From: Candidatus Nanohalarchaeota archaeon
GTDB taxonomy: Archaea > EX4484-52 > B79-G9
Assembly (NCBI GenBank): GCA_030634545.1
Contig: DAOWAN010000014.1
Location: 1 to 32,956, forward strand
Direction of reading: 5' to 3'
DNA length: 32,956 nucleotides
Positions 7,572 through 20,355 of this stretch are shown here, in pieces (positions within the stretch are counted from its first letter, which is position 1; each line of letters begins with the position of its first letter). Position numbers and translations under genes: made by a program. The notes under the pieces are model-generated. The model did no database searches. It was given only the letters and a program-made list of their open reading frames with translations, and was not told the DNA's origin.

Positions 7572-7602
7572 AAAAGAAAAAAAGGGGTGGCAGCTCACCA
7601 CC
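7572..7602 (-). terminator. hairpin plus T-tract terminator of the gap operon
   Basis: On the - strand a GGTGG/CCACC stem overlaps the gap stop codon. It is followed at once by a T-rich run (complement of AAAAGAAAAAAA at 7572-7583). T-tracts terminate archaeal transcription, and the hairpin adds a bacterial-like element. Confidence 0.6.
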
Positions 7603-8617
7603 ACTTCTTAAGTCCTAATGCATCATCAGTCTTTCTTACTGACTCTTTGGCATCTGTGACTGTGTTCATCATTGCTCTTATGCAGTCTATGTTTTCAGGG
7701 ACAACGTCTGATTCCTGGTGAACTGCCTGTATGTAGAATAGCTCACCGTCAACTACGTTGATGCTCTCGTCCCATACTGCTATCTCGTTTAGGTCGCTGC
7801 GCGTCCTTCCCATGTCGCGCGCAAGTTCCATGACTTCTGCTGTTGATGTGAGTCCTTCGCTTGCTTTTACAAGTATTACGCGCGGCGTGTTTGAAAAAAT
7901 CTCTTTCACATCATCTACACTTGCGTTCTTATTTAGTTCTACGCATACTGTGTGAAGATGCATCAGTGTTGTCGGTACAATTACTGCGCTGGTCATTATC
8001 TTCATGTCAGGAAAAATCGTGTTTACATCAGGTCCGTGATGGCTGGGAACTGTTGGCGGGTTTGGGACTATCGCGTTGACTGGTCCTTTCTTTGAATTTC
8101 CCGGGTCCGGTCCGCGCCTGATTAGTGTGACGCGCGCTTTCTTTACGCCCAGCTTCTTATCAATAGCACTTAGTGTCCTGCACAGGCCTGTGGTGTTGCA
8201 TGACACCACGCGTACAAAGTCTTTGCCGATGCTGTCTGCATAGTTGCCCATGGCATTGAATGATACATCACCGGTTCCTGATTTCTCACCACCCTGGAAA
8301 ATCGCCTTGACGCCGGCAGATTTGTAGATTGGCTTGTTTTGGATACCTACCTTACCTGGTGTACAGTCGATGACAATGTCTGCAAGTTTCAACAGATCAT
8401 CAAGTGTGCCTTCAACTTTTAGGCCTGCGTCTGTAAAGGCAGGCATATTTTCAGCGCAATTTACAAAAAGAGGATAACCCTGCTCAATAGCACGTCTTGC
8501 CTCAAATGTAGGTCTTGTCTTTACTACACCTACAATCTTCATATCATCCTGAAGCGACACAGCGTCTGCCACGCGCTTACCGATTGTCCCGTATCCATTT
8601 ACAGCTACAGCTATCAT
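7595..8617 (-). CDS. gap: type II glyceraldehyde-3-phosphate dehydrogenase (phosphorylating, archaeal)
   Basis: Catalyses the reversible oxidation of glyceraldehyde 3-phosphate with phosphate and NAD(P)+ to 1,3-bisphosphoglycerate in the cytosol. In many archaea it works mainly in gluconeogenesis. The 340-aa length is normal for the archaeal class. The N-terminus has the Rossmann motif [10 protein letters not shown]. The catalytic Cys lies in [12 protein letters not shown] (residue about 140). The RRGPDP and [14 protein letters not shown] segments are typical of the archaeal enzyme. I chose ATG 8617, giving the family-typical [10 protein letters not shown] start. An ATG at 8623 and a GTG at 8626 are in frame just upstream and overlap the AAGGATGTGAT ribosome site. 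It is the last gene of the operon, 46 nt after pgk, the enzyme that uses its product. Confidence 0.96.
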
Positions 8618-8663
8618 ATACATCACATCCTTACATTAGTTTAATTTCAGAATTAACTGGTTA

Positions 8664-9926
8664 CTATTCTGACTTATTAACATGATTATTATATTTTGAC
8701 CTCACTATCAAAGGTGCTCTCTTCTGCGCTGAGTTCACAAGCGCATCAACTGCCGGCAGGCGTTCACCTGCCATAAATAATATATATGCTCCGCCGCCTG
8801 TAGAGACGTGAGCTACTTTATCCAATAGATTCATCTGCTCTGCTGCAAGTGCAAGATGTCCTCCTCCAAGGACTGTGAAGGCTCTGCATTCATGCATTGC
8901 TTTTAGAAGTTCATGTGTGCCTTTTTCGAATCCTTTCTTCTCAAACATGCCCGCTGGACCGTTGCAGACTACAGTTGCTGCCTCTTCAAGAATCCGCGTA
9001 TATCTCCTGATGGTCCGATCTCCAATGTCAAGAATCGGGAAATCTGTAGGCAGAGTAGATACAGGCATCTCAATTCTTTTGCCATTCACACAGATCGCAA
9101 TATCTATTGGCATCTCAATCCTTGACCCGTACCTTGCAAGCAGTCTTTTAGCCCGCGGAATCTCAAGGTCTGCCTTTTTTTTGACAAGAGTATTATATGT
9201 AGTATCACCGACATCTTCACCGCGCGCAACAAGGAACACAAGCCCAACAAGACCTGATGTGATAATCTTGTCGCATGCATCTGCATCCAGCATCTGCTCA
9301 ACAACTTTCATTGTGTCATCAATCTTGCTTCCGCCAGCTGCAAATACAGATGGTCGCTCCGGCGCTTTTGAGACTTTTGATAAAATCTCAAGTTCTTTCT
9401 GCAAGACCCTGCCTGCAAAACTTGGGACTACTTCTGGAAATCCCACCAGAGATACATGGCTCCTGTGTGCTGCAGCAAAAGCATCATTGACATAGTAATC
9501 TATCAGAGGTGCAAGTTCGCGCACCATGTGCGCTTCGTGCTGGTTCTCTTTTCGCGCAGTTTCCTCTGCATTAAAACGCACATTTTCTAGAAGTATGATG
9601 TCCCCGTCACAAAGCTTTTTTATGCTGTTCTTTGCATGGGTCCCGAAAAGGTCATCTACATATACAACATTTTTTTGGACATGCTTAGATAGTGCCTCTG
9701 CATGCTTATCAAGTCGTATAAGATCTGAATCTCCGGCTCTTCCCTGGTGCGCCATAACAACAACTTTTGCACCGCGCTCTGCAAGCTCCCTGATTGTTTC
9801 AGAATGGCGCCGTATCCGGATATTATCAATAATCTCATTATTTTCATCCATCGGCGAATTAAGATCTGTCCTTACAAGAACGGTCTTTCCGCGAACATCA
9901 AAATCATCCATTTTCAGGAATTGCAT
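8664..9926 (-). CDS. pgk: phosphoglycerate kinase
   Basis: Transfers phosphate between 1,3-bisphosphoglycerate and ADP (3-phosphoglycerate and ATP) in lower glycolysis and gluconeogenesis. Its 420 aa match archaeal PGKs. Visible motifs are the N-terminal RTDLNSPM substrate loop, AHQGR, the HRSHVSLVGF segment, GGSKIDDTMKV in the hinge and C-terminal half, GPAGMFE, and the nucleotide-site glycines in VLGGGH and STGGGA. The frame stays open further upstream, but the extra residues are antisense-like and run into the nucleotidyltransferase gene. ATG 9926 has AAGGAG 10 nt upstream. ATG 9911 (MDDFDV) is the alternative and overlaps the upstream stop by 8 nt. Either way the gene overlaps the nucleotidyltransferase and is probably translationally coupled to it. 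Confidence 0.95.
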   Translation of the reverse strand: MQFLKMDDFDVRGKTVLVRTDLNSPMDENNEIIDNIRIRRHSETIRELAERGAKVVVMAHQGRAGDSDLIRLDKHAEALSKHVQKNVVYVDDLFGTHAKNSIKKLCDGDIILLENVRFNAEETARKENQHEAHMVRELAPLIDYYVNDAFAAAHRSHVSLVGFPEVVPSFAGRVLQKELEILSKVSKAPERPSVFAAGGSKIDDTMKVVEQMLDADACDKIITSGLVGLVFLVARGEDVGDTTYNTLVKKKADLEIPRAKRLLARYGSRIEMPIDIAICVNGKRIEMPVSTLPTDFPILDIGDRTIRRYTRILEEAATVVCNGPAGMFEKKGFEKGTHELLKAMHECRAFTVLGGGHLALAAEQMNLLDKVAHVSTGGGAYILFMAGERLPAVDALVNSAQKRAPLIVRSKYNNHVNKSE

Positions 9927-10767
9927 TAACATCCCACTCCTTAATTGCTTTTTCATATATTTCGGGGGTATCCAGATGGAACCATTTACCGTCATATACG
10001 TAACCTGCAAGTTTACCTGCTTTTGCAAGCTCCTCAAAGACGCTCTCAATCATAATCTTATTGTCAACAACTGTCGGGACATTGTCCAGAAGTTCCGGCT
10101 CAAGCATAAAGACCCCTGCATTTATCAGGTTGCTTGGCGCTTCACCGGGCTGTGGCTTTTCAATGAATCCTGTAATCTTTTCACCTTTAAGCTTAGCTAC
10201 ACCATAAGAGGTTGTGTCTGATGTGGTTGTAAGAGCCATTGTAGCCAGGACCCTGTTGCTCCTGTGTGTCGCAAGCATATCATGAATATCCACTCTTGAG
10301 AGCACGTCCCCGTATAAAAGAAGAAATGTGTCATTTACCATGCCTTTTGCAGATTTCAGGAAACCTGCGGTGCCGTGGGGCTTATCTTCGATGATATATC
10401 GTATGTTTACGCCGATTGCCCGTCCTTTCCCGAAATAGGATATGATTTTCTCATGCTTATAATCAACAACAAGAATTATGTCTGTAATACCCTCGGCTTT
10501 CAGGTGCCTGACGATATATTCAAGAACCGGCTTGTCAGAAACAGTCATCAATGGCTTTGGAACTTCGTAAGTGATGGGCTTCATCTTCTGCCCTTCGCCC
10601 CCGCAAAGAATTACAGCCTGCGTTATCGCCTGCTCATTGAGGGTTTTCATAAGGATTTTCTCAATTGCATGCGAACGGTTTTTGACATTGTAGCCATCCA
10701 CCATGCGGTCTATCCTTATGACCAGTTCTTCGTCCAGAGTTATTGAAATACGATGTTTGCCTGCCAT
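9904..10767 (-). CDS. ribbon-helix-helix domain fused to a sugar-phosphate nucleotidyltransferase
   Basis: A 287-aa two-domain protein. Residues 1-46 are a CopG/Arc-type ribbon-helix-helix: a beta strand (RISITLDEEL), a helix, then NRSHAIEKIL. From about residue 50 there is a nucleotidyltransferase of the glucose-1-phosphate type. Its signature ILCGGEGQKMKPITYEVPKPLM keeps the Gly-rich loop, but the usual Thr-Arg-Leu is Gln-Lys-Met. Other motifs are LLLYGDVL (metal-binding Asp), GxxEKP and the NAGVFMLEP segment. Family members make NDP-sugars from NTP and a sugar 1-phosphate. There is no left-handed helix domain at the C-terminus. It is first in an operon with pgk and gap. A perfect palindrome at its predicted transcription start suggests the DNA-binding half could regulate the operon. 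The substrate cannot be told from sequence. Confidence 0.88.
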   Translation of the reverse strand: MAGKHRISITLDEELVIRIDRMVDGYNVKNRSHAIEKILMKTLNEQAITQAVILCGGEGQKMKPITYEVPKPLMTVSDKPVLEYIVRHLKAEGITDIILVVDYKHEKIISYFGKGRAIGVNIRYIIEDKPHGTAGFLKSAKGMVNDTFLLLYGDVLSRVDIHDMLATHRSNRVLATMALTTTSDTTSYGVAKLKGEKITGFIEKPQPGEAPSNLINAGVFMLEPELLDNVPTVVDNKIMIESVFEELAKAGKLAGYVYDGKWFHLDTPEIYEKAIKEWDVNAIPENG

Positions 10768-10817
10768 GGAAACACAGATACCTTTTAGTATATTATTGTT
10801 TTTCTCTCATGTTCGCG

Positions 10818-10836
10818 GGTAATACTTTGTATTACC
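10818..10836. promoter_or_regulatory. perfect palindrome at the operon start: candidate operator
   Basis: GGTAATAC-TTT-GTATTACC has 8-bp perfect arms. It lies about 20 bp downstream of the TATA box, on the expected transcription start, and 51 bp before the start codon. Ribbon-helix-helix repressors bind such inverted repeats as dimers of dimers, and the first gene encodes such a domain. Autoregulation is therefore an inference. Confidence 0.55.
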
Positions 10837-10853
10837 TATTATACTGCGGATAT

Positions 10854-10863
10854 GTTTATATAC
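10854..10863 (-). promoter_or_regulatory. TATA box of the nucleotidyltransferase-pgk-gap operon
   Basis: GTATATAAAC on the - strand. A start about 25 bp downstream falls near 10832 and gives a leader of about 65 nt. Confidence 0.65.
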
Positions 10864-12576: not shown

Positions 12577-15500
12577 TTACTGAGTTACTTCTATTTCAAC
12601 TGGTTGTACTTCATCTCTCAAATCAGGGTTGTAATAATCATATACTGTAGATTTTGTAGTTTTAGCCTTTATCGGATACTTTGCCTTCAAGCCATATTCA
12701 AGATTAATTCCCTCGTGGTCAAGGTACCGGATGTAAATTATGATCTGTCTTCCTGTTACATCATATTTCTCTATGGTTCCTTTTTCCACTTCTTTTTGCA
12801 ATTCGCCTGAAATTACAGAGAAACCTGGAGGGATCCCTACATCTATTATGGCATTGTTAACAAATCCTTCTCCATGATAGACTGCATTGACTTTCGCTGT
12901 CACTATATCATTAACTCTCAATTCTGTCTTGTCATAGTCAAGATCAATGGTAATCAAATCCTTTGATGGTAACGTGATGCCATCCCAGTCAATATAGTAT
13001 ACGCCCACCATCTGATAAAATAAGTTACCTTCGCCCTGCATTGTAATTTTTATTGGTGTATCTCCTTTTTTAGCATATTGTTTGAGTTCAACCAGCTGCA
13101 GGACATCACTATTATCTTCATTGATTATTATTGTTTCAACCAATTCATCATCTACAAATATCTGTATGCTGGCATCTGCTACTTCACTATTTCCTGTTAA
13201 AGCATTAATCATGGATTTTAAAGACAATATTGTGGCAAAGGTTGACCCCCATGAACCATGACTATCCTTTTGGTTAACAATATATGTCAATATCTTATTT
13301 ACATCGGCACCACCATATCCTGCTTCTATATAAGCAAGGGCAGCCAATGAGGTTGTTTCCACATCCTTCATAGTTCCCTGTCCACCCATGACTGTTTTAG
13401 GATTGGTGTCTGTCCTGCCAGAAGATTCCCAATACATTGTTTTTGCATCCCTGACAGCCCGGGCATCCAATTCCTGTAGTACAGGCAAGCTCTTCTTGTT
13501 GTTGTAATTTGCAAGTGCATTCCCGCATAGGGCAAGAGTATAGCTATCCTCGTTCTCCAGGTCAATATTTTCTTCAATGTATTCAGCTGTTTTCTGTAGA
13601 TCATCATAACCTGTGTATGCAAGGCTCCATGCAACAAAGCAAGTTGATGTCATCTTATTTGATTGGACCTGTAAACCGGAAGTATGAAGTCTGCCTTCAG
13701 GTTCAAAACTTCCGTCTCCGTTCATCTGGGAAACAATATATTCCTGTGTTCTATCAACGATGTTATCATCAATCTCATACACATTTGCCATGTCATTGAA
13801 TTCCATCAATCCATAAGCAGAGAGCATCAGATTGGCTTCTTCCGGTGGTCCAAACCAAGTCCATCCTCCTTTTGTGTCTGATTCAAAGCTCATAAGCCTC
13901 TGATAGCCTGTGCTGATATATTGTTCTGATCTAAACTGAATTTCAGGGTTAATCTGGTTGGTTCTCTTCATATAATCAAGGATAAGAAGGTTAGGATAGG
14001 TTATTGAGGATGTCTGTTCAAAGCATCCGTGAGGCATCCTAAGCATTGAATCTAATCCCTCGACAAGCTGGCTAAAGATGCCGGGGTAGATTTTAACAAA
14101 TAATCTTTCACTGTCATCAATTGCTTCAAGCGGTACATTAATTGTTTTTTCAACACTGCCTTCTAATCTATCGCTGTGCGAAACCCTGAACTCTTTTCCA
14201 TCCGGAACTATCTCAATAATTCTTGATATTGCATCACTCTTTTTGCTTCCATGGGCATAGACTGTCAATTTATGATTGCCTAATTTTTTTGCCTTTATCC
14301 TAAAATACACAACATCAATATCATTTGCACCTATGTCGTGTGTCTTTGTAGATTCATCAAGCAATTCAAACCAGGGTTCTTCCTGTAGCTGTAATCTTAC
14401 TGATTGTTGCGTCTCTAAATAATTAAATACAGAGATAGGAATACTTACTTCGTCTTCCTGAGTCAAGCTTATCGGCAGGTCGATGTCAACAAAGAAATCC
14501 TGAAAAACAATCATCTGGGCATTATCTGAACCAAGGTCTCCATCAAGTGAATTTGCCAGGGCAGTTATTCTCCAGGAGGTAATTGAATCTGCCATCTTAA
14601 GATTTAGTGTAGCTTTGCCACTATCATCAGTGATAATCTGCGGGTTTGAATACAATGTTTCAGGGAAGAATTGTCTTACTCTTAGAGTTTTATCATCCCG
14701 GGATTCATCTGCTGCGAATTCTATTTCTCCTTTCATTGCTTTATCAGTCATAGCCATCCGGTCTAAGTCTCTAGCATCCCATGCCATGCCTCCCTCCAGA
14801 ACATCACCTGCACCAAATGTCGCAAGATTACCTGCAAATAAGAACGCGCTTCCAAACAACGGCAGTAAAAGTAACAGAAGAGCAATCAACAATGATGGAA
14901 CCGCAAGCTTGTTCTTCAATCTTAAAAAATCTACGGCGTATATTCCATAAATTATCGGAATAACCAGTGCAGCTATACTTACCCAAAGCATATTCTTCAT
15001 GTTTTCACTATATTCTCCCAGAAATGTAAACGCAGGAAATACGATAATATAGAGCAATAATAGCAGAGTAATCCAAAGTAGATTCGTGTCATTATTTTTT
15101 GCGTATCTTATCAACACAACTAATGAATATATTATTGCCATTAAAATTAAAATTGGGACTGCCAGCATAATCAGGTCATCATACAGGTAGAAAACTTCCA
15201 TCAAGGGCGTTAACATCAATGCCAACAGTATTGGGATAAGCATGGTTGAGATAAAGAATGTTTTGAAATCATCTTTTTTTCCTGATCGTACGGACAACTT
15301 AATAGCTGATATTAAAGCAATAATCAATATCACCAATTCAATGCCGTATATTGCGTCCATTAATCCATATCCTACGCTGTGTACAACCACGTCAAATATC
15401 CAAAATAGAATACCTATCAATATGACTGTTCCAAGTAATAACAGAATAGATAATCCTAAATCCTTTAACAGTTTCTTCTTTTGATTCCTGCGCCCATAAA

Positions 15501-17775
15501 CTGCCAATGCCAGAATTGAAATAGGTATTAAGATTAGAAGCAGTTGTGTGAATTTGAAGAGAGAGCTAAAGTAGTCCTCTTTTTTTCTTTCAATCTCCTG
15601 TTCTTTCTCAACTCTTGATGATGCTTTTAATGAAAACCTGTCTTCTCCAACTGCAGCTGCCATAAGAATATTTCCTGCCTGTGCCCGGACATGCTCATCT
15701 ACCATAGGGTTTGGTTTGTAAATCAATTCCGGCAATGTTATCCCATATATCATGTATCGTGGTTTCATTAATTCCTGTTCAAGTTCAAAGTATAATCTTT
15801 CAAAGCCGGACTCTTTTTCTTGTAGCGCAAATACTGATTCATCTACAATGTTCACTCCAATTGCAGCCGGGATAGCAACATTGTTTTTTGTGGTGTGAAA
15901 TGTTATCTGTGCTTCTTCTCCAGGCAAGTATGTGTCTTTTCCTGTTTTTATATCCAATTCAATGTCCTTTCTCTGATTTACAAAAATTGATCTGGTATCT
16001 CTAACAATATCTGAATTTCTTAATATCCTGTATGTATGCAACTCAAGGGTTCCTGCCATAGATTCATCTAAATCAAGTTCCAGTGCTGCTCTTCCATCTG
16101 TGACATCCAATGCTTTTGTGAGAATTGTCTGTTTATTCTTTATTACGTCAAGATATATTGTTCCCATGCTGCCTGTATAAAATGCATCAAGATAGACTGT
16201 ATCACCAACATCAAAAATGGATTTGTCAACCCGTAATAACACGCTTTCTGTGCGATACCTGTCTTCTGAGTATCTTTGATTTCTCCTGTATTCTTCCTCT
16301 GTCCGGGGGTTCTTAACATAGTCCCTTGGAAACTGAATGCTTGCACTTCCCGTATTACCTTTATTGTCTTGTGCATCTGCCTGCATCTCTACGAAAAAAT
16401 CATCCGGAGTTATCTTAAATTCCCCGAGACCATAGCTGTTTGTCTGGATCTGTTCTCCTTTTATTGTTACTGTAGATGGTGCTGGTTTTCCATCTGGATA
16501 TGTTGTTATTACATAAACAATATTTTCAAGACCTTTTTCAAGCTCTCCGCTTTCCGGAATCAACTCGATCTCAATCGGCTCTTTGGCTATCGGAACAGAA
16601 GACGTTATCTGTTCTTCGTGCCCGGTCTGGTCTGTGACTGAAATATTAAAGAATATCAGTCCTGAGCCTTTTTCAAGCGGCAATCCAATGAAATGAGATG
16701 GCAGATCAAATTCAAATCGATATATGCCGCTTGAGTCAGTTGTGCCATACAGGTTTCCAATCTCTTCCATGTTTACTTCATAAGTATAAATTTTTACATC
16801 TACATCTGCGTCATTTGTTGGTTTACCAAAGAAATAATCAGCATCAACTGTTCCTATGAGCTTTTGGTCAGGAAGATAATATGATTTGTCTGTATCAAAA
16901 CCCACTTTGAATTTGGGCAAGACATATTTTTTCACTTCAACTTTCTTCTCTGCAGAATAATCCCCTATTGATGCCCTGATAGTATACCGACCGTAGTTAA
17001 TTTCATTAGCCAGAGTAAAATCTGTTCCTACAATACCATATTCTGAGCTTGATATCTTCTTTTTGAATACCTTGTTACCTTTGGAGTCTTCAACTTCTAC
17101 TGTCACTTCTTTATCTTGCGCGGGTGTAGAATCAGAACATTGGATAGAAAGTGAGCGAATGTGAATGGTCTGCCCCGGTTGATACAGGGGCTTGTCTGTG
17201 GTCAGTAATATCTTATAGGTTCTTTCTATCTTAATTGGTTTTATTATTTCATCCCTGCCATATTTTGAGTCAGTGGTTATGATGAGTTCGTATTCACCTT
17301 CCAGATCTTCCGGGATCTTAAATTTAATGTCGGGAGAGCCTTGCTCATCTGTCTTCCCCTCAAAAAGAAGAACCTCCTGCATTGTGTCTTTGTCTCTGGC
17401 AATTATAGTAACTGCCGCTCCGGTGATTGGTTCAGAGTTCTTATGATTAAGTGTTACAATCCTTAATCCTGCTTCTGAACCTGGCGTAAAATCATTTTGA
17501 CCAAACACAAGCGTGTTCTGGTTATCCATATAATTCTCAAGATTCAGCATGTAGAATGAATAACCAACTAAAATCAGTATCATGATAGGGAGGGCAATAA
17601 ATATCGCTTTTTTGCTGATGAAGGGTATGCCTGGTTTTCCTCCTGAATGGTTCAGTGCCTCTTCAATATCCTTTTTTTCATAATCTTTTCTGCTAAGATA
17701 TAGCCTTAATTGCTGTTCAGAATAGCCCTGGGCTCTTTTACTTTTGATCCAATCGAGTAATTCTTTGTTGATCAT
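12577..17775 (-). CDS. membrane-bound alpha-2-macroglobulin with intact thioester and inserted transmembrane domain
   Basis: A 1732-aa member of the alpha-2-macroglobulin superfamily. Related proteins trap proteases or bind surfaces covalently. Residues 1-48 are a cytosolic helical domain, and about 53-76 a membrane helix. Macroglobulin domains follow: TDKPLYQPGQ at about 189, YVLPKF at about 282, and the bait-region-domain mark VDESVFAL at about 645. Residues about 738-982 hold eight transmembrane helices with Lys/Arg-rich loops on alternate sides. The core A2M domain starts near 1034 (RQFFPETLYSNPQ, DSITSW, FFVDIDLP). The thioester site is HGCFEQTSS with Cys1251 and Gln1254. A helical thioester domain and a C-terminal receptor-like domain complete it. 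A TATA box 28 bp from ATG indicates a leaderless transcript. The inserted membrane block is highly unusual for the family. Confidence 0.95.
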   Translation of the reverse strand: MINKELLDWIKSKRAQGYSEQQLRLYLSRKDYEKKDIEEALNHSGGKPGIPFISKKAIFIALPIMILILVGYSFYMLNLENYMDNQNTLVFGQNDFTPGSEAGLRIVTLNHKNSEPITGAAVTIIARDKDTMQEVLLFEGKTDEQGSPDIKFKIPEDLEGEYELIITTDSKYGRDEIIKPIKIERTYKILLTTDKPLYQPGQTIHIRSLSIQCSDSTPAQDKEVTVEVEDSKGNKVFKKKISSSEYGIVGTDFTLANEINYGRYTIRASIGDYSAEKKVEVKKYVLPKFKVGFDTDKSYYLPDQKLIGTVDADYFFGKPTNDADVDVKIYTYEVNMEEIGNLYGTTDSSGIYRFEFDLPSHFIGLPLEKGSGLIFFNISVTDQTGHEEQITSSVPIAKEPIEIELIPESGELEKGLENIVYVITTYPDGKPAPSTVTIKGEQIQTNSYGLGEFKITPDDFFVEMQADAQDNKGNTGSASIQFPRDYVKNPRTEEEYRRNQRYSEDRYRTESVLLRVDKSIFDVGDTVYLDAFYTGSMGTIYLDVIKNKQTILTKALDVTDGRAALELDLDESMAGTLELHTYRILRNSDIVRDTRSIFVNQRKDIELDIKTGKDTYLPGEEAQITFHTTKNNVAIPAAIGVNIVDESVFALQEKESGFERLYFELEQELMKPRYMIYGITLPELIYKPNPMVDEHVRAQAGNILMAAAVGEDRFSLKASSRVEKEQEIERKKEDYFSSLFKFTQLLLILIPISILALAVYGRRNQKKKLLKDLGLSILLLLGTVILIGILFWIFDVVVHSVGYGLMDAIYGIELVILIIALISAIKLSVRSGKKDDFKTFFISTMLIPILLALMLTPLMEVFYLYDDLIMLAVPILILMAIIYSLVVLIRYAKNNDTNLLWITLLLLLYIIVFPAFTFLGEYSENMKNMLWVSIAALVIPIIYGIYAVDFLRLKNKLAVPSLLIALLLLLLPLFGSAFLFAGNLATFGAGDVLEGGMAWDARDLDRMAMTDKAMKGEIEFAADESRDDKTLRVRQFFPETLYSNPQIITDDSGKATLNLKMADSITSWRITALANSLDGDLGSDNAQMIVFQDFFVDIDLPISLTQEDEVSIPISVFNYLETQQSVRLQLQEEPWFELLDESTKTHDIGANDIDVVYFRIKAKKLGNHKLTVYAHGSKKSDAISRIIEIVPDGKEFRVSHSDRLEGSVEKTINVPLEAIDDSERLFVKIYPGIFSQLVEGLDSMLRMPHGCFEQTSSITYPNLLILDYMKRTNQINPEIQFRSEQYISTGYQRLMSFESDTKGGWTWFGPPEEANLMLSAYGLMEFNDMANVYEIDDNIVDRTQEYIVSQMNGDGSFEPEGRLHTSGLQVQSNKMTSTCFVAWSLAYTGYDDLQKTAEYIEENIDLENEDSYTLALCGNALANYNNKKSLPVLQELDARAVRDAKTMYWESSGRTDTNPKTVMGGQGTMKDVETTSLAALAYIEAGYGGADVNKILTYIVNQKDSHGSWGSTFATILSLKSMINALTGNSEVADASIQIFVDDELVETIIINEDNSDVLQLVELKQYAKKGDTPIKITMQGEGNLFYQMVGVYYIDWDGITLPSKDLITIDLDYDKTELRVNDIVTAKVNAVYHGEGFVNNAIIDVGIPPGFSVISGELQKEVEKGTIEKYDVTGRQIIIYIRYLDHEGINLEYGLKAKYPIKAKTTKSTVYDYYNPDLRDEVQPVEIEVTQ

Positions 17776-17847: not shown

Positions 17848-20355
17848 CTAAATATGGATCTTATCTTTCTTCTTAGAATGGAATAAAATTGCAATCAGCA
17901 GGATACTTCCAAGAAGCGCAGCTGCAAGGCGTGAGGTCATGTGGAAGCCTGAAACGTTTCCTGTGGGTGTCTTTTCTGTACTGTCAGGGGTTTTTGCATC
18001 CTGCACGTCATCCTCTGAGGGCGCATCATCATCTACAAATGCATAGCGCTCATCAACGTGTGTGGTCTCTGTGTCTTCTGAAATATCATCTTCACGGGCA
18101 TCATTATCAGGTTCATCTTCGGTATCATCTAGCGCGCCATTACCGGAAGTGCTGTACGAGGTGGTCGTGGAGCCGCCTGTCTCTTCAGGAATACTATCTT
18201 CATCATCTTCCACGCCCCTGAAATTCAGTGTCTTCTGCAATACATAGGAATTATCATCCTGGTCTCTTATCTCAAGGATGATTTCATGGTCTCCTGCATA
18301 CCTGGGGGTAATCTCAAATGAGTACATCTCAAAAGATGAAGATTCAAGTTCGTCAAATACAATAACGTCACTGGAGACAATATCTATGCCGGGACTATCT
18401 ATGGTAATTATCAGACCGCGCGAAGATTCTGTTCCGCTGTTAAATGCTGCGCCAATCAATTCATAAGTTTCCCCAACATCCATGTTTTTTGGAATATTCA
18501 GGTCAAGGGAAAGAACCGGTGAAGAATGATTTATGATTTCTGTTGTGCTGAAAGATGTATCCCAGGTCATTTCACTGCCTGCTGAGCCTTCTGAATAAAC
18601 TGAAAATGTCCTTGTGCCAAGCAGTTCATCCGGTGTGTCTGCCAGTGCCTGTACAGAATACACTATGCTTGCATCAAATGAATTGCCTTCAAGTGTATCA
18701 AGCATCTTTAAGGGCGCATCTGTTGTCACAAACCCGCCAGCTTGCGGCAGCGCAAGACCGACTGTGATACCTGTGACATCATCATCATAGCTGTTTATCA
18801 AAAGCGCAATTACATGGAATGTATTATTTCGCGGTACTATTGCCGGCAAAAGCAGCTGGCAATCGTATGAATCATTGTCCGGTGAAGGTACAACTGTGAT
18901 CATCCCGTTTTTTACATCTCCATCATGGATTGAATCTATGGAAGAGAGCGTACTGACATTAAGTTCATAATCTCCTGGGGCACTCATGAATTGATAAGTA
19001 TTATCTTTATGGGTTGCCGGGTCAACCAGGATTGCGTCTGTGCCAATGAAAAGTCCGTTCATAGTATACACTCCAGTCACAATATCATACATAGGTCCAT
19101 TGTTCATAACTCTTGTATTTACATCAATGTTTCTGCCTTCCATAGCATATCGCGGCATATCTGCAAACAAAAGAGAAATATCTGCATCTGTGTGTCCGCG
19201 ATACACTGTATTATGAAAGCCTGGTGTTGTATGGCTGATACTTGTATCCCAGTTAGCATAATAATTAGTCAGGACATAGGGGTCAATCCTTTCAAGGGAT
19301 GATCCCTCACCAAGAGAATCAATTACTGATGAGGTGTCCCGGTCACTCCCGTAAGTGCTCTTGTAAGTAAAAGAATCAATCATATTGTCATCGGCATCAA
19401 AAAGCGTGATGGTTCCGCCGGTGTTTGAAAGTCCGCCAAGAATTGATTCTCCTGCATTAAAATACGTGGCATTTTCGGGGATGCCAATAGAACTATCATC
19501 ACTCATGACAACTGCAAAAAAACCAGGTGCAAGCAGGGTATATTCTCCAGCAATAACATATACAGCACCCCAGCTGCTTTTTATGTACCACCCATCCATA
19601 TCAATCTCTTCATCATAAGGATTATAGAATTCTATGAATTCTAAATTAACATCATCACCTGGCGGGTAAAACATGACCTCATTAATGATGAGATTTGGGT
19701 ATACCTGAAATACACTTGTCTCAATGAGATGATTATAGGCAGCATAAGCCATGTATTCGCCGGTCTGCATAGAATGCGCTATCCTGAAACCATCAGCGAA
19801 TTCACCTTGTGAATCTGTGAGCGCTTCTGAGACATAGACTATGTTTCCGTCTTTGTCTTTTACTGTTATTGCGACGCGCCCATCCTCATAAACTGCGCCG
19901 TTGATTACAAGCGTACCTTCAATCTCTACTTTTTCGCCTTTGATATATTTCTCTTTGCCGGTATCAATTGTAAGTGTGTCAAAAACACTTTCAATCTCAA
20001 AGGTGTCTGTATTAGATGCTTCCTTACAGCTTACAGATATTGTATAGGTGCCGGATTCTATTGAAAGCGGCGCTACAAAAGAAGTGCTGTATAGACCGGA
20101 CTGGCTTGTCCTTACCTGATCTGCAATTATTTTGTTTGAGCTTCCAGGCCCGGTAACTTCTATGCCAATATCTGTATTTGCCGCATTTTCACACAAGCTT
20201 TCGATGGAACCGTAGATGTATATCCTGTCTGTTGGAATGTATGCGGGCTTATCTGTATATACAGATATTGAACAGCCAGTGCCTTCTGTAAAAGACAAGG
20301 CTGAAAGTAAGCAGATGCAAAACATAGCTGCAATTAGCAATATTCTATTTTTCAT
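17848..20355 (-). CDS. lamin-tail-domain surface protein with macroglobulin-like N-terminal domains and PTG/TM anchor
   Basis: An 835-aa exported protein. Residues 1-24 are a signal peptide. Two beta-sandwich domains follow (about 27-125 and 126-222). The first begins SVYTDKPAYIPTDRIYI, closely resembling the MG2 start of the neighbouring macroglobulin (TDKPLYQPGQ). Residues about 225-350 are a lamin-tail domain (LIINEVMFYPPGDDVNLEFIEFYNP is the type mark), common in exported bacterial and archaeal proteins. Further Ig-like domains reach about 700. An Asp/Glu/Ser/Thr-rich stalk runs from about 715 to 788. The last 39 residues are PTG, a hydrophobic helix and a Lys-rich tail. The start has GGTG 5 nt upstream. 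It is 19 nt after the 708-type gene (same operon) and directly upstream of the macroglobulin. A functional partnership with it is inferred. Confidence 0.88.
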   Translation of the reverse strand: MKNRILLIAAMFCICLLSALSFTEGTGCSISVYTDKPAYIPTDRIYIYGSIESLCENAANTDIGIEVTGPGSSNKIIADQVRTSQSGLYSTSFVAPLSIESGTYTISVSCKEASNTDTFEIESVFDTLTIDTGKEKYIKGEKVEIEGTLVINGAVYEDGRVAITVKDKDGNIVYVSEALTDSQGEFADGFRIAHSMQTGEYMAYAAYNHLIETSVFQVYPNLIINEVMFYPPGDDVNLEFIEFYNPYDEEIDMDGWYIKSSWGAVYVIAGEYTLLAPGFFAVVMSDDSSIGIPENATYFNAGESILGGLSNTGGTITLFDADDNMIDSFTYKSTYGSDRDTSSVIDSLGEGSSLERIDPYVLTNYYANWDTSISHTTPGFHNTVYRGHTDADISLLFADMPRYAMEGRNIDVNTRVMNNGPMYDIVTGVYTMNGLFIGTDAILVDPATHKDNTYQFMSAPGDYELNVSTLSSIDSIHDGDVKNGMITVVPSPDNDSYDCQLLLPAIVPRNNTFHVIALLINSYDDDVTGITVGLALPQAGGFVTTDAPLKMLDTLEGNSFDASIVYSVQALADTPDELLGTRTFSVYSEGSAGSEMTWDTSFSTTEIINHSSPVLSLDLNIPKNMDVGETYELIGAAFNSGTESSRGLIITIDSPGIDIVSSDVIVFDELESSSFEMYSFEITPRYAGDHEIILEIRDQDDNSYVLQKTLNFRGVEDDEDSIPEETGGSTTTSYSTSGNGALDDTEDEPDNDAREDDISEDTETTHVDERYAFVDDDAPSEDDVQDAKTPDSTEKTPTGNVSGFHMTSRLAAALLGSILLIAILFHSKKKDKIHI

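Follow-up and report, generated by a model that had tools for sequence, protein, structure and literature searches.

The Bacillus subtilis repressor CggR is the product of the first gene of its operon. PMC11229326 describes it as repressing the gap-pgk type operon in which it is encoded, through an operator located downstream of the promoter, and as a sensor of sugar phosphates that is tetrameric on DNA, with dimers on the half-operators. PutA combines a ribbon-helix-helix (RHH) DNA-binding domain with a proline catabolic enzyme and is presented in PMC5293562 as an autogenous repressor; enzyme-derived autoregulators are already known from examples such as this one. Among the CC-licensed full texts searched, we found no description of a family in which an RHH domain is joined to a sugar nucleotidyltransferase, and none appears in the passages of PMC6393860 that were consulted.

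In a 32,956-nucleotide stretch of DNA from a Candidatus Nanohalarchaeota archaeon (the window; genome G000), we considered a gene that encodes this combination of domains and that heads an operon containing pgk and gap (Table 1). As judged from sequence, and with a probability of roughly 0.72, we favour the reading that its product is an autoregulatory repressor of the pgk-gap operon whose nucleotidyltransferase-derived half became a ligand sensor.

Table 1. Features of the pgk-gap operon and its promoter region, in window coordinates.
Feature	Position	Strand	Basis
RHH-nucleotidyltransferase fusion gene, 287 aa	9904..10767	-	Pfam domains, AlphaFold2 model, homologues
NikR-like RHH domain, residues 1-46; predicted DNA-contact triad Arg6-Ser8-Thr10	10630..10767	-	RHH_1, NikR profile match, triad versus half-site
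Sugar nucleotidyltransferase domain, residues 50-287; loop Gln60-Lys61-Met62 altered, remaining pocket conserved	9907..10620	-	Pfam, alignment, fold match
Phosphoglycerate kinase gene pgk, second in operon; 23 nt overlap with fusion gene	8664..9926	-	Pfam
Type II glyceraldehyde-3-phosphate dehydrogenase gene gap, third in operon	7595..8626	-	NF003251, TIGR01546
Palindromic candidate operator GGTAATAC-TTT-GTATTACC; two GTATTA half-sites about one helical turn apart	10818..10836	.	Exact match, order-wide conservation
TATA box TATATAAA	10855..10862	-	Centre 31.5 nt upstream of palindrome centre

The original prediction that the first gene joins an RHH domain to a nucleotidyltransferase agrees with Pfam, which matches NTP_transferase (PF00483) at residues 51-267 (E 2e-37) and RHH_1 at residues 6-41 (E 4e-4), the latter with a score barely above the cut-off (20.6 versus 20.5 bits); RHH_1 is matched by 41 of 84 relatives at E 0.01. 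An AlphaFold2 model of the whole protein, made with 84 family members (mean pLDDT 92.2, pTM 0.86), begins with an extended segment followed by helices at residues 13-22 and 31-45. Residues 49-286 superimpose on GDP-mannose pyrophosphorylase beta (GMPPB, 7d72_E; Z 30.3, 2.2 Å over 233 residues) and also match RmlA, MurU and UDP-glucose pyrophosphorylases. When the first 52 residues are taken alone (pLDDT 80.6), they give middling Z scores against ParD (Z 6.6, 50 residues, 1.9 Å) and NikR (Z 5.7, 49-50 residues, 1.8-2.3 Å); the weak Foldseek E-value (0.28) reflects the very small size of the domain. Among solved RHH proteins, NikR comes closest in profile comparisons of sequence, with an E-value of 8.9e-6 for 7 sequences and 1.6e-9 for 84 (1q5v). 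The protein thus has the N-terminal strand, two helices and family sequence match of the NikR/CopG type, and the expectation that the first 46 residues would model as an RHH domain is borne out by the strand-helix-helix unit of the single-chain model, for which NikR and ParD are the nearest solved folds. The same fusion is present in metagenome-assembled genomes labelled Candidatus Nanohalarchaeota, Aenigmatarchaeota, Aenigmarchaeota or simply archaeon, and because full-length homologues occur in many independent genomes it is not an assembly artefact. A type II toxin-antitoxin antitoxin was considered and rejected, as no toxin gene is adjacent (the next genes are pgk and gap) and the C-terminal half is PF00483.

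The downstream genes are pgk and gap, as had been claimed. Twelve genomes of the order carry the fusion, 11 found by search and one (G010) whose pgk contig opens with the last residues of the fusion. The fusion gene lies immediately 5' of pgk in 11 of these 12; in G007 pgk has diverged and a stretch intervenes. Operon-type pgk (E below 1e-100) is found in 11/12 fusion genomes and in 0/22 other genomes of the order. Among the 11 fusion genomes surveyed for gap (all but G010), the gene follows pgk in G000, G001, G006, G007, G009, G015, G020 and G028 and was not found within 1.8 kb after pgk in G025; the sequences of G004 and G008 end within pgk. A search for archaeal fructose-1,6-bisphosphatase (FBPase, PF01950) gave no match in the 12 fusion genomes, and gluconeogenesis as the direction of the operon was dropped on that account. 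The operon may run either as glycolysis or as gluconeogenesis; of the 'glycolytic operon' in the original prediction, the operon stands and the glycolytic direction is one of two possibilities. Elsewhere in the window, beyond a plus-strand gene, the minus strand carries an open reading frame of 1732 aa (12577-17775), which we take to resemble an alpha-2-macroglobulin-type protein.

The perfect palindrome that had been noted at the fusion gene's promoter is present in exact form just downstream of the TATA box, its centre 60 nt before the ATG. With archaeal transcription starting about 25 nt from the TATA box, the start would here fall in the palindrome or at its edge. Within the window this is the sole match at up to 3 mismatches, where shuffles lead one to expect 0.07 (6 of 100 shuffles had at least one). 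In the order as a whole, exact GTAATACNNNGTATTAC occurs at 12 places in 11 of the 34 genomes, and a reversed-pattern control gave 0. Nine of the 12 lie directly upstream of the fusion, one each in G000, G001, G004, G006, G007, G008, G009, G020 and G028, and all nine have the spacer AAA. The exact palindrome is therefore present in 9/12 fusion genomes versus 2/22 others (Fisher p 2e-4), so that the proposed search at the same fusion in relatives was largely positive: G015 has the palindrome with 2 mismatches, the upstream region of G025 lacks it, and that of G010 is cut off by the contig. In ten measured fusion promoters, G015 included, the palindrome is always downstream of TATA, at a distance of 15.5-31.5 nt, as expected for a repressor that would act by blocking.

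A scan of the genome for further palindromes, which had also been proposed, did not reveal a regulon. There is one perfect copy in G000, which points to an essentially single-site, self-regulating switch. A genome-wide regulon was accordingly rejected; a site in G000:C143 that departs from the palindrome at 2 positions proved to be a direct repeat, located at an RNA-like gene that neighbours tmk. Small conserved RNA-like genes are found beside tmk as two in tandem in G000, G002 and G003 and as one at a contig end in G001 (G000:C143 ~19000-19500, designated L002, and loci L068, L069 and L192), and all of them have a TATA box and, close to the predicted start, direct repeats of GTAATAC. An Rfam scan of the window, L002, L068 and L069 gave nothing at E 0.5.

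Promoters of unfused catalytic nucleotidyltransferase genes in the order (20 examined) include strict half-site pairs in G006 and G015, a pair 13 nt apart in G005 and one-mismatch palindromes in G008, G009 and G010, with none in G000; these sites hint at a second set of targets.

In RmlA-type enzymes, the catalytic loop holds the triphosphate, and the GTAG, EKP and NAG motifs line the base and sugar sites. The window protein lacks the GxGTR[LM] loop, and the altered signature noted earlier is confirmed: residues 60-62 are Gln-Lys-Met, compared with Thr-Arg-Leu/Met in intact relatives. Within the pgk clade the loop is Gln-Arg-Met in G001, partly deleted in G015, G020, G025 and G028, and shortened and degenerate in G006. 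Twelve positions elsewhere (E127, P130, G132, T133, G135, G153, D154, E203, K204, P205, A217 and G218) are conserved in 11/11 aligned clade members, and the window protein keeps the Asp after Gly153, the EKP motif and the GTAG motif. Loss of the loop with retention of the GTAG/EKP/NAG pocket suggests binding without turnover. The proposed shift from catalysis to sensing is supported by this clade-wide loss; in the window protein itself the loop alone is altered, Arg61 is merely replaced by Lys, and Asp154, Lys204 and Asp266 are retained, so that nucleotidyltransferase activity is possible. Of the 14 sister-clade members, 9 have His in place of Asp154.

We weighed whether the protein could still be active as a sugar-1-phosphate nucleotidyltransferase and repress its own operon as well, making it a trigger enzyme like PutA. 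Conservation of Asp154, Lys204 and the GTAG positions 132, 133 and 135 throughout the clade would fit such a role, as would the Arg kept by the G001 loop, the fully intact loop of 20/93 relatives, and the phosphomannomutase/phosphoglucomutase genes found near 18/93 fusions, in 12 as the next gene on the same strand. Yet G020 and G028, which share the operator, and G006 have loops so eroded that catalysis is unlikely as a conserved function there. Moreover, residues predicted to contact DNA tend to be decayed where the loop is intact: the canonical triad is found in 8/18 loop-intact versus 62/66 loop-degenerate fusions (p 1e-5, with relatedness left in), and a pair of half-sites at the own promoter in 2/18 versus 28/66. 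We regard the trigger enzyme as unlikely.

The wider family was collected by searching a model of the RHH region (A3) in 394 genomes, of which 133 had a match; 93 fusions were extracted. They span many archaeal families and form one tree, and no relative of the fusion was found in viral contigs. The pgk-operon clade is sister to a clade with five members that have the pair at a neighbouring operon and not at the own promoter. In G050 the same palindrome precedes a gene encoding 252 residues, after which come NUDIX-like and epimerase-like genes; in G111 and G385 the pair precedes a related gene, in G201 it precedes an epimerase, and the fifth member is G131. A site likewise lies before an epimerase in G019, which is more distant.

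Half-site pairs 9-12 nt apart, in either orientation, occur within 110 nt upstream of 22/91 fusions, compared with a mean of 0.15 and a maximum of 2 in 300 shuffles. Outside the clade of the window protein the count is 13/80, with 3, 8, 3 and 1 pairs at spacings of 9, 10, 11 and 12 nt, and otherwise just 17 and 37 within the range 6-40. A pair was also seen in 13 of 524 control upstreams, of which 7, when inspected, proved to have their promoter region in common with a fusion and 6 to be adjacent operons. Counts of k-mers made with no assumptions rank GTAATA, GTAATAC and GTATGA first or close to first in the upstream regions of fusions, and GTAATAC is present in 25/91 fusion upstreams versus 25/524 controls, which include mechanically called open reading frames (p 1.5e-12). 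When all loci were scanned (878 kb, some loci double-counted), all but five of 40 pairs were at the promoter of a fusion or a nearby gene. A pair of either type stands at the own promoter of 30/84 fusions, and 54/84 have no recognisable pair there. A generic search for inverted repeats upstream of all fusions returned mostly AT-rich noise and was superseded by the search for half-site pairs. Two further genes of this kind were observed: a strongly degenerate second paralogue in G000 (G000:C47:9052-9858, L049) with its own operator type, TCTTAC..GTAGGA..GTAGGA, and an RHH-nucleotidyltransferase-like gene (L038 5120-5854) upstream of the fusion-pgk pair in G025, adjoining a tRNA-like stretch.

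NikR contacts DNA through residues 3, 5 and 7. The corresponding strand residues of the fusions, 6, 8 and 10, vary with the half-site: Arg/His-Ser-Thr (Arg-Ser-Thr in G006) with GTATTA, Arg-Thr-Thr (as in G182b) with GTATGA, and Lys-Ser-Thr with GTAGGA/GTAAGA (type B). In a profile alignment of 84 sequences, the aligned triad of E. coli NikR is Arg-Thr-Thr, and PMC7055735 gives the operator of that protein as GTATGA-N16-TCATAC. The mean GTATGA fraction is 0.09 for Ser8 proteins (n=19) and 0.90 for Thr8 proteins (n=10), a difference reached in 0/50000 permutations and, after collapsing to 14 groups, which removes relatedness just partly, in 30/50000. This test used a hand-compiled table that left out G286b (Lys-Ala-Ser), G090 (mixed site types), the Lys-Ser-Thr clade and the GTAAGA/GTAGGA match in G009; exceptions to the code are mixed sites in G119, G092, G112, G203 and G271. 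The covariation is consistent with a contact between residue 8 and base 5 of the half-site.

The correspondence bears on a second alternative, in which some other transcription factor binds the palindrome and the fusion's RHH half merely aids oligomerisation. The same heptamers do occur in the order away from the fusion. The remaining three exact palindromes belong to G017 and G022, in which no fusion was detected, and are GTAATAC palindromes near unrelated genes (L064 in G017; L063 and L065 in G022, both with tandem repeats). The RNA-like genes with direct repeats include those of G002 and G003, two genomes in which the search detected no close relative of the window fusion, so that the half-site may also be read by another factor. 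Nevertheless, half-site letters track the strand residues of the fusion itself across distant families, and the type B operator is nearly confined to the Lys-Ser-Thr clade (8/9 members), occurring outside it at 9-12 nt in G009 alone and at 13 nt in G237. An unrelated reader of the palindrome is therefore quite improbable. That the protein is a plain metabolic enzyme with a vestigial DNA-binding domain beside a chance palindrome has only the general frequency of such enzymes in its favour and, against palindrome conservation and loop loss, is improbable in the extreme.

To consider the ligand, we surveyed the neighbourhoods of the 93 fusions from three genes upstream to four downstream, naming each family from one representative. 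Besides the phosphomannomutase/phosphoglucomutase genes already mentioned (18), the neighbours that recur are NAD-dependent epimerases (28), other nucleotidyltransferases (24), UDP-glucose/GDP-mannose dehydrogenase (14) and cupins (9). Because these neighbourhoods are rich in nucleotide-sugar genes, the family most likely binds a nucleotide sugar or sugar-1-phosphate, and the same would by extension probably apply to the window protein. The idea of a metabolic sensor-repressor in the original prediction is thus strengthened by operator conservation and the match of residues to half-sites, and its ligand is more likely one of these compounds than a triose phosphate.

The fusion, the operator conserved at its own promoter, the correspondence of residues with half-sites, the operon and the loop loss are read directly from the sequences; from these we infer that the RHH domains dimerise and form a tetramer on DNA, that the protein represses and does not activate, what its ligand is and which way the ligand acts. 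Four chains, paired as two NikR-like RHH dimers, would occupy the two GTATTA half-sites from the same face of the DNA, and the bound tetramer, just downstream of the TATA box, would block the pgk-gap operon headed by the fusion gene. The C-terminal half, derived from a sugar-1-phosphate nucleotidyltransferase, would have lost the triphosphate/catalytic loop, kept the remaining pocket and come to serve as the sensor, most likely of a nucleotide sugar or sugar phosphate. Triose-phosphate flux would in this way be tuned to the sugar-nucleotide pool. For the family, we lean slightly towards a widespread archaeal class of nucleotide-sugar sensors, composed of a NikR-like RHH domain and a sugar nucleotidyltransferase, in which a lineage retains catalysis or DNA binding but not both, the residue-to-base code is readable, and one DPANN lineage derived a dedicated pgk-gap autoregulator.

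To our knowledge, little is known of the control of central carbon metabolism in small-genome DPANN archaea. The present analysis names a candidate regulator, operator, target operon and likely ligand class for it. The family also displays a stepwise change from enzyme to sensor in a single gene family, and the strand residues that it naturally pairs with particular half-sites amount to a small RHH recognition code that agrees with the known NikR site.

Among known systems, NikR is the closest solved relative of the RHH domain, and the GTATGA half-site is common to E. coli NikR and the Arg-Thr-Thr members. However, NikR half-sites are N16 apart, whereas those of the fusions are 9-12 nt apart, or one helical turn; NikR has a C-terminal metal-binding domain in the place of the sugar nucleotidyltransferase; and the predicted targets of the fusions are sugar-metabolism genes. 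PutA likewise carries an RHH domain on one chain with a metabolic enzyme and represses its own regulon, but that enzyme is unrelated and active, while the catalytic loop of the fusion is mostly lost; Pfam found neither a proline dehydrogenase nor a P5C dehydrogenase domain in the window protein. The nucleotidyltransferase half shares the fold of GMPPB, RmlA and MurU (GDP-mannose and UDP-/dTDP-glucose pyrophosphorylases) and differs in its replaced GxGTRL loop and in the added N-terminal RHH domain. With CggR, the fusion shares its place at the head of a pgk-gap operon and an operator downstream of the promoter element, as a functional analogue for which we claim no homology: CggR is bacterial, has a winged helix-turn-helix (HTH) and a SorC effector domain, a combination not seen in the window protein, and uses another operator. 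By analogy with these systems, the locus would combine the position and logic of CggR with a NikR-like DNA reader and a sensor derived from a nucleotidyltransferase.
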